Positions 11,824-24,148 of a DNA stretch of 29,304 nt are shown here, in pieces. The notes beneath the pieces were generated by a model. That model was not told the origin of the DNA and made no database searches. It was given only the letters and a program-made list of their open reading frames with translations. The stretch's first letter is position 1. Each line of letters starts with the position of its first letter. Source of the stretch: a virus; IMG/VR virus record IMGVR_UViG_3300025598_002118, positions 1 to 29,304 of that record; one strand, given 5' to 3'. The position numbers and the translations under genes were made by a program.

Positions 11824-12582
11824 ATGAAGCGTAAACAGAAACTAAAAGAACAAATGAACCCAAACAACGCATCTCAATCTAAAAATTATTACAACGTAAC
11901 GCAAATAGAACAGTTTCTACCTCAACGAAAACGAACTGTTGAAATTATCCCTAGAAATTTAAATCAGGAAAATTACCTAGCACTGCTTATGGACCCTTCT
12001 GTAAGTATTATAATTGCAAGTGGACCAGCAGGAACTGGTAAAACTTTACTTGCTATGCAGGCTGCTATTAAATTCCTTAAAGAACGTCAAATTGATAAAA
12101 TTGTAATGACAAGACCAGCAGTTGGTGTTGAAGGTGAAAGACATGGTTTTTTACCAGGTGATTTAGTTCAAAAAATGGAACCTTGGACTAAACCACTATT
12201 TGATGTGCTGCATGAATATTATACGCCACGAGAAACACTTTCTATGATCGAAAATGGTGTTGTTGAAATTTGCCCACTTGCTTTTATGCGTGGTAGAACA
12301 TTCAAAAATGCACTAATTATTGCAGATGAAATGCAGAATGCAACGCCTAATCAAATGAAAATGTTATTAACACGTATAGGTGAAGGAAGTCGTATCATAG
12401 TAACAGGAGATGTTCGACAGACTGACAGAACAGAAGGTGAAAATGGATTGCTAGATTTTAACAAACTAGTTAATCAATTCCGCGACAGTAACTATGTTGG
12501 CACCGTAGAATTTACAGGATACGATATTGAACGCCATCCAGCAGTAGAGGAAATTCTAAGAATTTACGGAGATATCAAATAG
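11824..12582 (+). CDS. phoH: PhoH-like ATPase
   Basis: 252 residues, the only plus-strand gene. A single P-loop domain carries Walker A GPAGTGKT (67-74), KIVMTRPAV (92-100), Walker B IIADEMQN (165-172) and the sensor-like IIVTGDVRQTD (191-201), all in the order of the PhoH family. The basic N-terminus (about 1-40) is a phage-type extension. PhoH proteins are widespread in aquatic phages; RNA-binding or nuclease-linked ATPase roles are proposed but not settled. It reads towards the clamp-loader operon and its last eight bases overlap the end of the gene at 12575-12931. Confidence 0.92.
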   Translation: MKRKQKLKEQMNPNNASQSKNYYNVTQIEQFLPQRKRTVEIIPRNLNQENYLALLMDPSVSIIIASGPAGTGKTLLAMQAAIKFLKERQIDKIVMTRPAVGVEGERHGFLPGDLVQKMEPWTKPLFDVLHEYYTPRETLSMIENGVVEICPLAFMRGRTFKNALIIADEMQNATPNQMKMLLTRIGEGSRIIVTGDVRQTDRTEGENGLLDFNKLVNQFRDSNYVGTVEFTGYDIERHPAVEEILRIYGDIK

Positions 12583-12931
12583 TCTTACGACTTAATAATT
12601 TTAACAAACGCCACTGTTCATAGGCATCTTTAACGGCGGTATTTTCATGTTGGCTATCCATCGCCCAACTTGTTTGGTTAATCCAACCGCCGTTTTTGCC
12701 TTGTGCTTTGTATATTGCCCATGCTTCTGGTAGATACTGTTCATACCAAGTATCTTCGCCTTGATCGTTACGTGTCATACCAAAGAAAGCATTACCGTCC
12801 ATTATTGCGCATACCTCTGCTATAGGACGCAGCAAATCTTTTTCTTTTTGTGTAAATTTTCTTTTTTTATGTTTTTGGTTATAATTTTGCCAAAACCAAT
12901 GCAAAAAAGATTCAGGTGTGCTTTTAGTCAT
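12575..12931 (-). CDS. Unknown protein downstream of the clamp loader
   Basis: 118 residues, Trp-rich (for example LHWFWQNYNQ near the start and TWYEQYLPEAW in the middle), with a basic KHKKRKFTQKEK stretch at about 20-31. It occupies the position held by the clamp-loader partner gp62 in T4, and its start overlaps the clamp-loader stop. However, it is shorter than T4 gp62 and shows no similarity that I can see. It may be a divergent small clamp-loader subunit or an unrelated protein. Confidence 0.72.
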   Translation of the reverse strand: MTKSTPESFLHWFWQNYNQKHKKRKFTQKEKDLLRPIAEVCAIMDGNAFFGMTRNDQGEDTWYEQYLPEAWAIYKAQGKNGGWINQTSWAMDSQHENTAVKDAYEQWRLLKLLSRKTI

Positions 12932-13853
12932 GTAGATCGGCTAACTCACAAAATGTTGCACTTAAGTTAATTTCAGCATCTGCTACCATGCTGTGATTTA
13001 CTAAGCCATTACGGATGATGATAATTGCACGGTCTTTGTTTTCATCGTTGCTTGCAAATAAGTCAAGATTATCATACATCCAACGAAATACTTCTTCCAT
13101 TTCATCGGGACGCACTTGGCTGCATATTAATTTACGTGCTTCACGAATCTTCCTTGCTTTGAATAATTCAACTGCTTGTAAACGATAGTCATTGCTGTTC
13201 TGTGAACCTTGAGAAATAGTTTGTAACACACCACCGCTGCTACCACTTTGTAGTGAGTTAATGCACTTACGAAGGTCAGGATACTGTGCGCTTACATAAG
13301 TGTCTAACACATCTAGATCAAAGTTTATATTTTCTTCAACAAGAATTGTGGCAGCACGAGCAGTAAACTCTGTTTTGTCAAGTTTCTCAATATGGAAACC
13401 TTGACAACGACTATGAAGTGCTGGAATAATCTTGTTAGGATAGTTGCATGTCATAATAAAACGAGCGGTGCTGCTATAAGTCTCCATCAAACCTCGCAGC
13501 ACCGCTTGCGCGTTAGGTGACAGATAATCTGCCTCATCTAACAGCACTACCTTAAATTCACCAAATGGTATTGTTGATACAAAACCTTCAATACGTTCAC
13601 GAATAAAGTCAACGCCGTTATCTCTGGAAGCGTTGATTTGCATAATATCATAATCTTCTACGCCAAGATCATTCATGAGAACCTTTGCAAGCGTAGTTTT
13701 ACCTGTGCCTGGTCCACCACTGAATAGCAGATGCGGAATATTCTTTTCACTTACCCACTGTCGAACTTGTGCTTGTTGGGCATCATCACGCCAAACATAA
13801 TCGTTTACCGTGCGTGGGCGGTATTTCTCTGTCCAAAGATAATTTGTAATCAT
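12924..13853 (-). CDS. gp44: Sliding-clamp loader large subunit (T4 gp44-like, RFC-type AAA+)
   Basis: 309 residues. It opens with WTEKYRPRTVNDYV, the usual start of RFC/gp44 proteins. It has Walker A GGPGTGKT (46-53), Walker B VVLLDEAD (102-109), the sensor 1 strand RFIMTCNYPNKI (131-142) and the S-R-C motif (148-150) that supplies the trans arginine. A helical lid and collar follow. It loads the phage sliding clamp for replication and late transcription. A strong sigma70-type promoter precedes it with predicted +1 at the ATG, and no ribosome site is visible upstream. Confidence 0.93.
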   Translation of the reverse strand: MITNYLWTEKYRPRTVNDYVWRDDAQQAQVRQWVSEKNIPHLLFSGGPGTGKTTLAKVLMNDLGVEDYDIMQINASRDNGVDFIRERIEGFVSTIPFGEFKVVLLDEADYLSPNAQAVLRGLMETYSSTARFIMTCNYPNKIIPALHSRCQGFHIEKLDKTEFTARAATILVEENINFDLDVLDTYVSAQYPDLRKCINSLQSGSSGGVLQTISQGSQNSNDYRLQAVELFKARKIREARKLICSQVRPDEMEEVFRWMYDNLDLFASNDENKDRAIIIIRNGLVNHSMVADAEINLSATFCELADLHD

Positions 13854-13859
13854 AGATTT

Positions 13860-13888
13860 ACTATAAACTAGTTTTTATATTTTGTCAA
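13860..13888 (-). promoter_or_regulatory. Sigma70-type promoter of the clamp-loader gene
   Basis: TTGACA at 13888-13883, a 17-base spacer, and TATAGT at 13865-13860. Standard spacing places +1 at 13853, the A of the ATG, predicting a leaderless mRNA as for clpA. The -35 overlaps the end of the gp31-like gene. Confidence 0.75.
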
Positions 13889-14280
13889 ATATAATCGCCA
13901 AAGGTCAAATTTTCTTTTGGTGGCTCGTCGCTTGAAAGTAGAATATCTTTAGGATCAACAAGACGAACTGTAGTAGTTTCACCATATTCATCTGTCATAT
14001 CAAGACCACGTGTCCAACGACCATGTGCAACTAGGATATATTCGCCTGGTTTTACGTCTTCTTGTAGTCTGCCAACAGCTACTACTTCTGCCCAACGTGG
14101 ACGAATGCCTTGACCTTTCTTATCATCATCAAGAATGATGATACCACCAAGTGTCATGCGTTCACCAAATTCCATGTCTTTTACAAGAACATTATTTTTA
14201 GTAGGAGTAATTTTACGATAATCACCTAAAATGTGATGTAAACTGCTTGTAGCACCTTTAATTTGTGTCGCTGTTGCCAT
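13885..14280 (-). CDS. gp31: GroES/gp31-like co-chaperonin
   Basis: 131 residues, longer than host GroES (about 97) and near T4 gp31 (111). After a 20-residue N-terminal extension, ITPTKNNVLVKD begins the GroES barrel. GERMTLGGIIIL (39-50) occupies the place of the mobile loop that binds GroEL, with the hydrophobic G-G-I-I-I-L contact. WAEVVAVGR and VKPGEYILVAHGRW complete the barrel strands. Phage proteins of this type replace GroES on host GroEL to fold the major capsid protein. It overlaps the upstream gene by 23 bases and has GGTGA upstream of the ATG. Confidence 0.88.
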   Translation of the reverse strand: MATATQIKGATSSLHHILGDYRKITPTKNNVLVKDMEFGERMTLGGIIILDDDKKGQGIRPRWAEVVAVGRLQEDVKPGEYILVAHGRWTRGLDMTDEYGETTTVRLVDPKDILLSSDEPPKENLTFGDYI

Positions 14281-14470
14281 GTATAATCACCGTTGCATTT
14301 CTTTGACTGTTTCTTATTTCATTAATATAATCATATGTAGTATTTTTTGGTTGTACTACAATATTTTTATCATCATCAAGTAAATTTATATTTGTTTGAT
14401 TTGCGTTGTCTTGACTGTCGTCAATAGGATGAAAAATTCGTTGTGGTTCTTGTTGTGGGAAATTTGTCAT
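14258..14470 (-). CDS. Small unknown protein
   Basis: 70 residues, rich in Asn, Gln and Asp, probably mostly disordered, with a possible short helix around YDYINEIRNSQ and a strand ATVIIHG at the end. Its ATG overlaps the TAA of the upstream gene (TAATG), and it overlaps the gp31-like gene by 23 bases, which supports a genuine coupled gene. No function is apparent. Confidence 0.65.
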   Translation of the reverse strand: MTNFPQQEPQRIFHPIDDSQDNANQTNINLLDDDKNIVVQPKNTTYDYINEIRNSQRNATVIIHGNSDTN

Positions 14471-14886
14471 TATATTCTTCTGCGTTGTGCTCGAAGCAAT
14501 TCCGCAAGTTCTGCACTTTTGGCTTTAGCATCATTAAGCCCGCCAATCCCACTTGGCTCACTTGTTGGATTTACTTCAATTAAATTTTCTTGTGATATAT
14601 TTACTTCTTCTAATCCATTTGGCATGGGTTCAAAAAAGTTATCTGCTATTACAGCACTTGCTGCTTCATCAGCATTAGTATAGATAGGATCGCTGTTTAA
14701 ACTTGCGCCTTGTTGGTTTTTGTAATATTCATTTACTAATTCATCTCTAGAAACCACAATCTGTCCTCCTGGTCCTAATATATCTCCGCGTGCGTTTTGA
14801 CGGCTGTTTCCCACAGCAATAGTTCTTTCTTGTTGAATTTTTAGAGCATTCATGTCTAAAAATTTTCCATTTGCAGTACGATGCAT
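14470..14886 (-). CDS. Conserved-looking T4-like phage protein of unknown function
   Basis: 138 residues with AGGAG well placed before the ATG at 14886. The N-terminus (MHRTANGKFLDMN, then ERTIAVGN and NARGDILGPGG) resembles a protein I associate with T4-like aquatic phages, usually unnamed. The middle is acidic; the C-terminus is an Ala/Lys/Arg-rich helix ending RAQRRRI. No enzymatic motif is seen. It lies between the DnaE-like gene and the gp31-like gene in the mazG operon. Confidence 0.75.
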   Translation of the reverse strand: MHRTANGKFLDMNALKIQQERTIAVGNSRQNARGDILGPGGQIVVSRDELVNEYYKNQQGASLNSDPIYTNADEAASAVIADNFFEPMPNGLEEVNISQENLIEVNPTSEPSGIGGLNDAKAKSAELAELLRAQRRRI

Positions 14887-14896
14887 TTATTACTCC

Positions 14897-14915
14897 TATG
14901 CGTATTTAACGCATA
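14897..14915. repeat. Perfect 7-bp inverted repeat just upstream of a ribosome site
   Basis: TATGCGT and ACGCATA flank a 5-base loop. On the minus strand the hairpin abuts AGGAGTA, the ribosome site of the gene starting at 14886, and overlaps the stop codon of the DnaE-like gene. The loop carries TTAAATA, a weak late-box match. There is no T-run, so a role in translation or processing is more likely than termination. Confidence 0.5.
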
Positions 14916-15421
14916 AATTCTTCAAAATTTAAATTTTGTTTCAAACTGTGTATACGATGAATACCAATTAAGTATAAAACAAAACTAGCAACACTACTTC
15001 CACGTCCAACGCCCCATACTACATTATGCATACGCATAGTGTCAACAAGATATTTTAAGTATTGTAGCAGCGGTAATAGGTTGCGTTCAGCATATTCCAT
15101 TAGTTCTTGACCTGCTCGTTGTAATTCATTTTGGTCAGCACACTGGTCTAATACCCACTTAGCAATATCTAAATTTTTATATTCATCTGGCATAAACCAT
15201 TCTTGTTGGTTATTTGCATGATAGTCATGCGCACTACCATTAAGTGTTGCTAACTTTTTTAATAGTTTATAATCAATATACAAACTTTTTATTGCCGAAT
15301 TATATTTTTCAGGATCAATAATAGCAATATCATCAATAGTAAGTTGCGGATTTACATATAGTAATTGCGCTAACTCGCTATCACTTATTATGCTGCGACC
15401 ATATTCGTCAGTTTTTATCAC
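14906..15421 (-). CDS. DnaE-like fragment (bacterial DNA polymerase III alpha, palm-entry region)
   Basis: 171 residues starting with GTG (AAAGG nine bases upstream), overlapping the previous gene by 14 bases. The C-terminal 70 residues match the stretch of DnaE around its GPGRGS motif: VVWGVGRGSS (about 135-144), then S-F-V-L-Y-L-I-G-I, and finally LNFEEFMR, equal to the L-x-F-E-R-F-L that closes this segment. Upstream, PDEYKNLDIAKWVL and the following helix fit the preceding DnaE region. The protein stops just where DnaE would continue to its catalytic D-x-D, so it cannot polymerise on its own. It may bind DNA, nucleotide or the replisome, or be a relic. Recognition is by eye but the match is strong. 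Confidence 0.72.
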   Translation of the reverse strand: MIKTDEYGRSIISDSELAQLLYVNPQLTIDDIAIIDPEKYNSAIKSLYIDYKLLKKLATLNGSAHDYHANNQQEWFMPDEYKNLDIAKWVLDQCADQNELQRAGQELMEYAERNLLPLLQYLKYLVDTMRMHNVVWGVGRGSSVASFVLYLIGIHRIHSLKQNLNFEEFMR

Positions 15422-16061
15422 CTTTGATGACCTTTGGCTTCCATTTCTTTAGTGGAATAATATTATTTTTTGATTTCTTTTTATCTATTGTAACAGGCTT
15501 TTTCTGCCACTGCAAATATTCTGGCCATTCATTTTCATCATATAGCACTTCAACATCTTTTTTCTTAACTATTGGAATATCAAATGTAGTTGGAGTATTT
15601 CTAAACCACCATGCTGGTTTGTCCCAGTTCTTAAACGATAAATCAGACATTATTTCTTCATTATTGACCATATCCTCATCAACATTTAATGCAATATCAT
15701 CACTTTTATCGCATGAAACTGAAATGTATTCAAGTGACATTCGTCCTTGTGTAATACTTAAAATTTTATACCAAGTAACTATTCCTATAATAAGATTACT
15801 TGGTTGATATGGCAGTGTAATAATACGAGATTTTAATTTTTTGGTAAGAACAGGAAGTATTGGATTAGCAACATAGGAGAATATTGCATCTTGATATAAA
15901 TCTTTTATAAGACTGCGAACTCTGCCAAATGAAGTATGTGGGTCTTCTTCATTAAGTGATTCATCATTAAAACCAATAGTAATTGAATAACTACAAGGCT
16001 CAAGAATATCCTTATAACAATTTATAGCAGTAAAATCTGTGTGCCATGTTACATCGCTCAT
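15408..16061 (-). CDS. Unknown phage protein
   Basis: 217 residues, ATG overlapping the previous stop as ATGA. The first 110 residues look beta-rich (CSYSITIGF, SRIITLPYQ, LIIGIVTWYKIL, LEYISVSCD), followed by an acidic linker and a Trp-rich part (NWDKPAWWFRNTP). The C-terminus is strongly basic (KKWKPKVIKGDK). It is reminiscent of a nucleic-acid or assembly-related protein but I recognise no family. It is in the middle of the mazG operon, directly before the DnaE-like gene. Confidence 0.75.
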   Translation of the reverse strand: MSDVTWHTDFTAINCYKDILEPCSYSITIGFNDESLNEEDPHTSFGRVRSLIKDLYQDAIFSYVANPILPVLTKKLKSRIITLPYQPSNLIIGIVTWYKILSITQGRMSLEYISVSCDKSDDIALNVDEDMVNNEEIMSDLSFKNWDKPAWWFRNTPTTFDIPIVKKKDVEVLYDENEWPEYLQWQKKPVTIDKKKSKNNIIPLKKWKPKVIKGDKN

Positions 16062-23791: not shown

Positions 23792-24148
23792 TTATCCAAA
23801 ACTAACGCTTGTTCCGCAACCACAACTACTTTGTGCTAATGGGTTACTAACTACTAATGTGCTGCTGATAAAATCACTTACAAAGTCAATTTCGCTACCA
23901 ATTAAGTAAACATGTGCAGTACAATCGACTACTAATTTTTTATCTTCGCCTAAATCAATAAAGTCATCACGGTCAGGTGTGCCATTTTTATCATATTCTT
24001 CTTGGTCTGCCGGTATCCAAAAATATTCAAAACCAGCGCAACCGCCGCCTTTAAGACCAAAAATAAGATATGGTTTATCAATATCAATAAGTTTACGACG
24101 AATATGTGTTTTTGCAGATTCTGTTAGATGAACAATATGTGCAGTCAT
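23792..24148 (-). CDS. A-type iron-sulfur cluster carrier (IscA/ErpA/HesB family)
   Basis: 118 residues with the three conserved cysteines of the family: LKGGGCAGFEY (Cys37) and SSCGCGTS (Cys109 and Cys111) near the C-terminus. The length is normal. These proteins bind and pass 2Fe-2S or 4Fe-4S clusters to target enzymes. The internal stretch DQEEYDKNGTPDRDDF (about 49-64) is more acidic than in host copies. It is directly downstream of IF-1 with a gap of one base and is probably cotranscribed. Phage copies are known as auxiliary genes in aquatic viruses; the recipient protein here is unknown. Confidence 0.9.
   Translation of the reverse strand: MTAHIVHLTESAKTHIRRKLIDIDKPYLIFGLKGGGCAGFEYFWIPADQEEYDKNGTPDRDDFIDLGEDKKLVVDCTAHVYLIGSEIDFVSDFISSTLVVSNPLAQSSCGCGTSVSFG

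Follow-up and report, generated by a model that had tools for sequence, protein, structure and literature searches.

A stand-alone DnaE-like protein as the probable N-terminal half of a split DNA polymerase III alpha in large T4-like phages

The window analyzed here is the whole of IMG/VR virus record IMGVR_UViG_3300025598_002118, a fragment of 29,304 bases, and the gene in question is an open reading frame (ORF) on its minus strand at positions 14906-15421. The ORF encodes 171 residues between a GTG start and a TAA stop, an intact frame as the original prediction had stated. Its product, called here the N-half, is very probably the N-terminal chain of a shortened family-C DNA polymerase core that large T4-like phages encode in two parts; in relatives, a second gene encodes the catalytic C-half. 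The features of the ORF, with all coordinates given on the window, are as follows.

14906..15421, minus strand: probable N-terminal half (nucleoside triphosphate (NTP)-binding, GxGRGS) of a split minimal DNA polymerase III (Pol III) alpha, phrog_11127; based on profile matches, relatives, DnaE alignment and a structural model
14912..15127, minus strand: segment detectably homologous to DnaE, residues 99-170; PF07733 match
14996-15013, minus strand: GxGRGS motif, G137-x-G-R-G-S142; invariant in 48/48 relatives
14906..14920, minus strand: fixed C-terminus E-F-M-R-stop, at about E. coli DnaE residue 393, before MPDFDVDF (399)

Profile searches against Pol III alpha families gave significant matches. 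Residues 99-170 matched PF07733 (Bacterial DNA polymerase III alpha NTPase domain in Pfam) above the curated cut-off, with an E-value of 3.9e-9 and partial coverage of the profile (23-94 of 260 only), while NCBIfam Pol III alpha models matched with E-values down to 9e-6. The family phrog_11127, labeled 'DNA polymerase', matched near full length (E 1.6e-40, profile 10-171 of 171). No DnaE match was detectable for residues 1 to ~95, and no PHP domain was matched in the 171-residue protein by Pfam or NCBIfam profile searches. The N-half aligns with residues 344-392 of E. coli DnaE, in which GRGS lies at 361; because the alignment ends at 392 and MPDFDVDF starts at 399, the N-half ends just before the catalytic aspartates, and the claim that the ORF aligns to DnaE around GxGRGS and stops short of those residues is confirmed. 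What is encoded is not a full single-chain Pol III alpha with PHP, palm, thumb, fingers and beta-binding domains, but a stand-alone, GRGS-bearing, DnaE-like NTP-binding piece that stops before the catalytic aspartates, as the N-half of a split Pol III alpha should be.

Stand-alone homologues are conserved in other phages. The N-half was matched by tblastn in 103 named phage records, led by SCTP-2, the PA5oct group, Atu_ph07 and the RaK2/121Q/Munch group, and has at least 597 relatives in IMG/VR; the window's copy is 39-41% identical to those of the nearest isolates. All 80 of the IMG/VR relatives inspected end 0-4 residues past a shared E/D-F-L/M/I-K/R motif. None extends into the catalytic residues; such an extension, which the original prediction had said would count against it, was not seen, although those residues are nevertheless encoded in trans (see below). 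A DxDxD motif within 600 nucleotides (nt) downstream was likewise absent from all 80, in agreement with the earlier remark that the downstream DNA does not resume DnaE. Residues G137, G139, R140, G141, S142 and S146 were identical in 48/48 relatives, with GRGS kept unchanged across widely different phages, and ratios of nonsynonymous to synonymous substitution rates (dN/dS) of 0.04-0.15 among related pairs indicate purifying selection. Given the common endpoint, the low dN/dS and a conserved operon, the N-half is a maintained stand-alone DnaE-related protein and not a broken gene, and this part of the original prediction is supported.

The missing catalytic part is a second stand-alone gene. 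The true C-half escapes PF07733. It was reached with PF17657, a finger domain in Pfam, which in genome-wide searches of six phages gave weak hits in four, to ORFs of 192-213 residues; the phrog_11778 family was found also in the remaining two. The C-halves of relatives, ~190-210 residues long, belong to this family (phrog_11778, 'DNA polymerase', E 4e-73 or better). A weak PF07733 match in Munch (63835-64044), considered as the missing half, was rejected, its frame containing four stops across other genes. The C-half opens with M-PDIDIDF or a close variant. It has an ATG of its own, which in many cases encodes the Met of MPDIDIDF and otherwise lies no more than a few residues ahead of the catalytic motif. 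Its motifs follow the DnaE order (DxDxD, HxxG, KxD, RP, KxxH), with blocks collinear with DnaE at DxDxD, RP and KSH, and D3/D5/D7, H34/G37, K66-x-D68, R135-P136-K138, K165 and H168 were invariant in 32/32 sequences. Mapped onto DnaE, the N-half stop and the C-half start lie no more than ~6 residues apart, so that the two breakpoints are complementary. The C-half gene adjoins primase and helicase genes and the N-half lies in a clamp-loader operon; the distance between them ranged from ~15 kb (XacN1) to >200 kb (Phosso) in the records examined. The N- and C-half are gp56 and gp16 in 121Q, and MIJ3_00130 and MIJ3_00061 in MIJ3.

Two further genes were seen at C-half loci. On the 5' side (L110-L189; for example L112:8281-8970, L016:79-798, and L198:2304-3038 on the minus strand) is a ~230-245-residue gene, present at 75 of the 80 C-half loci, whose product carries a zinc-finger-like CxxC-x(10-13)-H-x(1-3)-C in its N-terminal part and is a possible partner. 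The 3' end of the C-half is overlapped by an opposite-strand gene of ~110-140 residues (L112:9742-10143 and L110:4822-5199, minus strand; L198:1081-1512, plus strand). This convergent gene, often with a WWWESNR motif, was also present at the loci read in 121Q, Atu_ph07, Phosso, MIJ3, SCTP-2, Munch and Slicko01, the overlap being kept across distant phages.

The two halves occur together. The C-half was found in 58/58 top-ranked named phage records bearing the N-half and, conversely, 58 of the 59 top C-half records carried the N-half, the lone exception, of 109 kb, being probably a partial record. Both were also present in the weaker-match cases RAS14 and Slicko01, in the nearest large relative (G001, a 338-kb IMG/VR contig with an N-half 72% identical to the window's) and in IMG/VR contigs G002, G004, G005, G009-G013, G017 and G018. 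Fused halves, or halves neighboring within 10 kb, were not seen in 160 loci. A family-B polymerase (PolB) was found in 10/10 large relatives tested, G001 included, and none in the 29-kb window fragment. The Alishewanella phage Slicko01 (L230) is complete, circular and, at 141 kb, below jumbo size, and its C-half adjoins both clamp loader and primase/helicase genes. G001 encodes, beside the split pair and PolB, an extra single-chain compact family-C polymerase of 582 residues near 23.6-25.4 kb (L225:1288-3036, plus strand), with RGSAGS...LPDIDID in one chain (phrog_405, E 1.5e-63).

Structure prediction, which the original prediction had suggested as a check, gave confident AlphaFold models for both halves, with predicted local distance difference test (pLDDT) scores of 87.9 (N-half) and 90.7 (C-half). 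In a Foldseek search of the PDB, family-C polymerases filled the 12 highest rows with the N-half as query and the 14 highest with the C-half, at modest scores, and Pol III alpha was the best structural match of both. In E. coli alpha, the PHP domain spans residues 1-270 and the thumb about 433-510. The D401-H511 interval, which holds the thumb, is 110 residues long in E. coli and 31 in the C-half, and the R639-K758 interval (fingers) 119 and 30, respectively. As judged from sequence, the split pair thus lacks PHP, has almost no thumb interval and keeps only a small part of the fingers.

The claim that the N-half lies in an operon with a ribosome site was also borne out: the last 14 nt of the preceding gene are shared with its start, an overlap that probably reflects translational coupling, AAAGG stands 9 nt 5' of the GTG, and 19 nt separate its stop from the next gene start. 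The operon is conserved across 86 relative loci, and in the window its other members are as follows.

15408..16061, minus strand: upstream 217-residue gene, 3' end shared with the N-half start (14 nt); fast-evolving, no family match
14470..14886, minus strand: downstream 138-residue gene, phrog_14844 (function unassigned in the family); beside the N-half in 81/86 loci
13885..14280, minus strand: GroES-like co-chaperonin (Pfam Cpn10, E 9.9e-7); operon member in 82/86 loci
12924..13853, minus strand: sliding-clamp loader large subunit of the T4 gp44 type (phrog_168, E 2e-81); operon member in 73/86 loci
12575..12931, minus strand: small gene overlapping gp44, a putative gp62-like clamp-loader small subunit by position only; no family match

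The 217-residue gene was detected at the same place in the operon in 25/86 relatives, mostly at 20-27% identity.

Homology, fixed and complementary breakpoints, active-site conservation, co-occurrence, purifying selection on the N-half and a replisome operon form the observed basis for placing the N-half in a two-chain enzyme. In the proposed arrangement, the palm would take its GRGS element, which binds NTP/triphosphate, from the N-half, and the C-half would bring the shortened fingers and all three catalytic aspartates, so that by their motifs the two chains together appear to complete the family-C nucleotidyltransferase core. In the structures 2hpi and 5fkv, GRGS stands next to the three aspartates. 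Most likely the chains bind each other non-covalently to build a single active site, without an intein or intron where they meet, and the pair probably works at the phage replisome or fork beside the phage family-B polymerase. There it may extend primers, fill gaps or serve the lagging strand; the clamp-loader and primase-helicase neighbors fit primer extension or gap filling. We infer the physical assembly, catalysis and exact role of the pair, together with the presence of a C-half in the window's own phage. The same motifs (GRGS loop, DxDxD, KxD, RP, KSH) stand in the same order in E. coli DnaE (Pol III alpha, 1160 residues), which, unlike the phage pair, is one chain and has PHP, the thumb interval, full fingers and the beta-binding/OB/tau regions.

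Several observations weigh against this assignment. The N-half alone was found in seven contigs (88-289 kb) and the C-half alone in five (110-222 kb), all of which may be incomplete. No C-half was found within the 29-kb window fragment; as the window covers only 29,304 bases, the gene is expected in this phage from its relatives. The Foldseek E-values are weak (0.001-0.03) and the global root-mean-square deviation is high, and the pair may not be a processive polymerase, because PHP, the thumb interval and most of the fingers are lost.

The last point bears on what the assembled halves would do. They could form a non-replicative nucleotidyltransferase acting in short-patch repair, end-tailing or maturation of PolB primers rather than a template-copying polymerase, which is a variant in role of the split-enzyme reading and not an alternative to it. 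We consider such a role unlikely, if plausible: it would suit a pair that has lost the thumb interval and ~90 finger residues, in phages with a family-B replicase (10/10 genomes), but the pair keeps the DnaE motifs for catalysis and deoxynucleotide contact, and its gene neighbors are replisome genes. Also tentative, and less likely than not, is a working two-chain family-C polymerase of ~360 residues that lacks thumb and PHP and shares the fork with PolB, maybe the relic of an ancestral multi-gene enzyme rather than a fragmented DnaE.

The original prediction had gone further and given the maintained domain a new job, as a decoy or regulator binding the host replicase or clamp. Taken by itself, an N-half without catalytic aspartates would suit such a job, but a phage-encoded catalytic partner exists in relatives, in trans in 58/58 of the top-ranked named records. 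The decoy or regulator interpretation is therefore unsupported, the missing part being a second stand-alone gene; only the maintained stand-alone DnaE relative stands. The exactly complementary break and the GRGS invariance across widely different phages argue in the same direction. Furthermore, the known contact regions of E. coli alpha for the beta clamp, tau and epsilon lie outside the N-half piece, so a decoy acting through them is improbable, and overall we give this explanation little credence.

That a split intein or a trans-splicing intron joins the halves once they are expressed is very improbable: phages are known to have split inteins and fractured genes, but the N-half reaches its stop codon at the junction itself, 19 nt ahead of the next gene, the C-half has its own ATG at or just before the catalytic motif, and no Rfam RNA was found in the window. 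A broken remnant of a captured host dnaE, suggested by the short length of the N-half and by the 'truncated' label given to its counterpart in phage CBB (PMC5259590), is refuted by the purifying selection, the shared endpoint in 80 divergent relatives and the conserved operon.

The two-chain enzyme belongs to a kind already proposed. Iyer et al. 2021 (PMC7824862) described group 2.2 jumbo phages in which a minimal Pol III alpha is split into two proteins, an N-terminal NTP-binding and a C-terminal Mg2+/template-binding one, encoded by distant genes beside a family-B polymerase. The halves were said only to 'likely' reconstitute the enzyme, and an ancestral multi-gene family-C polymerase was suggested as the source of the relic. 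These phages are of the group found here (Atu_ph07 and gammaproteobacterial jumbo phages), and because the pair had been described, the window N-half is a further, divergent member of that split Pol III alpha, with no difference in kind. To that description the present analysis adds where exactly the junction falls, in which two operon contexts the halves lie, how strictly they co-occur and that a 141-kb phage also has the pair. The accessible parts of the CBB report (PMC5259590), and of the Atu_ph07 paper, which lists gp316 as Pol III alpha, name no partner half. No later experimental work on the split Pol III alpha, and no laboratory test of it, was found in the open literature.

Two-chain polymerases have a parallel in some Aeromonas T4-like phages, in which the family-B polymerase gp43 is split into two polypeptides, although that enzyme is of another polymerase family and of independent origin. 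The entries for phrog_11127 and phrog_11778 are separate and give no link between them as one enzyme. Recognizing the pair would correct database labels: C-half entries often read 'hypothetical protein' or 'putative membrane protein', and those of the N-half 'DNA polymerase III alpha subunit'. If the halves are active together, they would make up a minimal family-C polymerase whose break falls exactly between GRGS loop and catalytic aspartates and which operates alongside a family-B replicase. Such an enzyme would bear on the question of whether bacterial replicases originated from smaller separate parts.

Elsewhere in the window, an ORF at 23792-24148 on the minus strand ends in ...SSCGCGTSVSF and resembles, by eye only, A-type iron-sulfur cluster carriers (IscA/ErpA).
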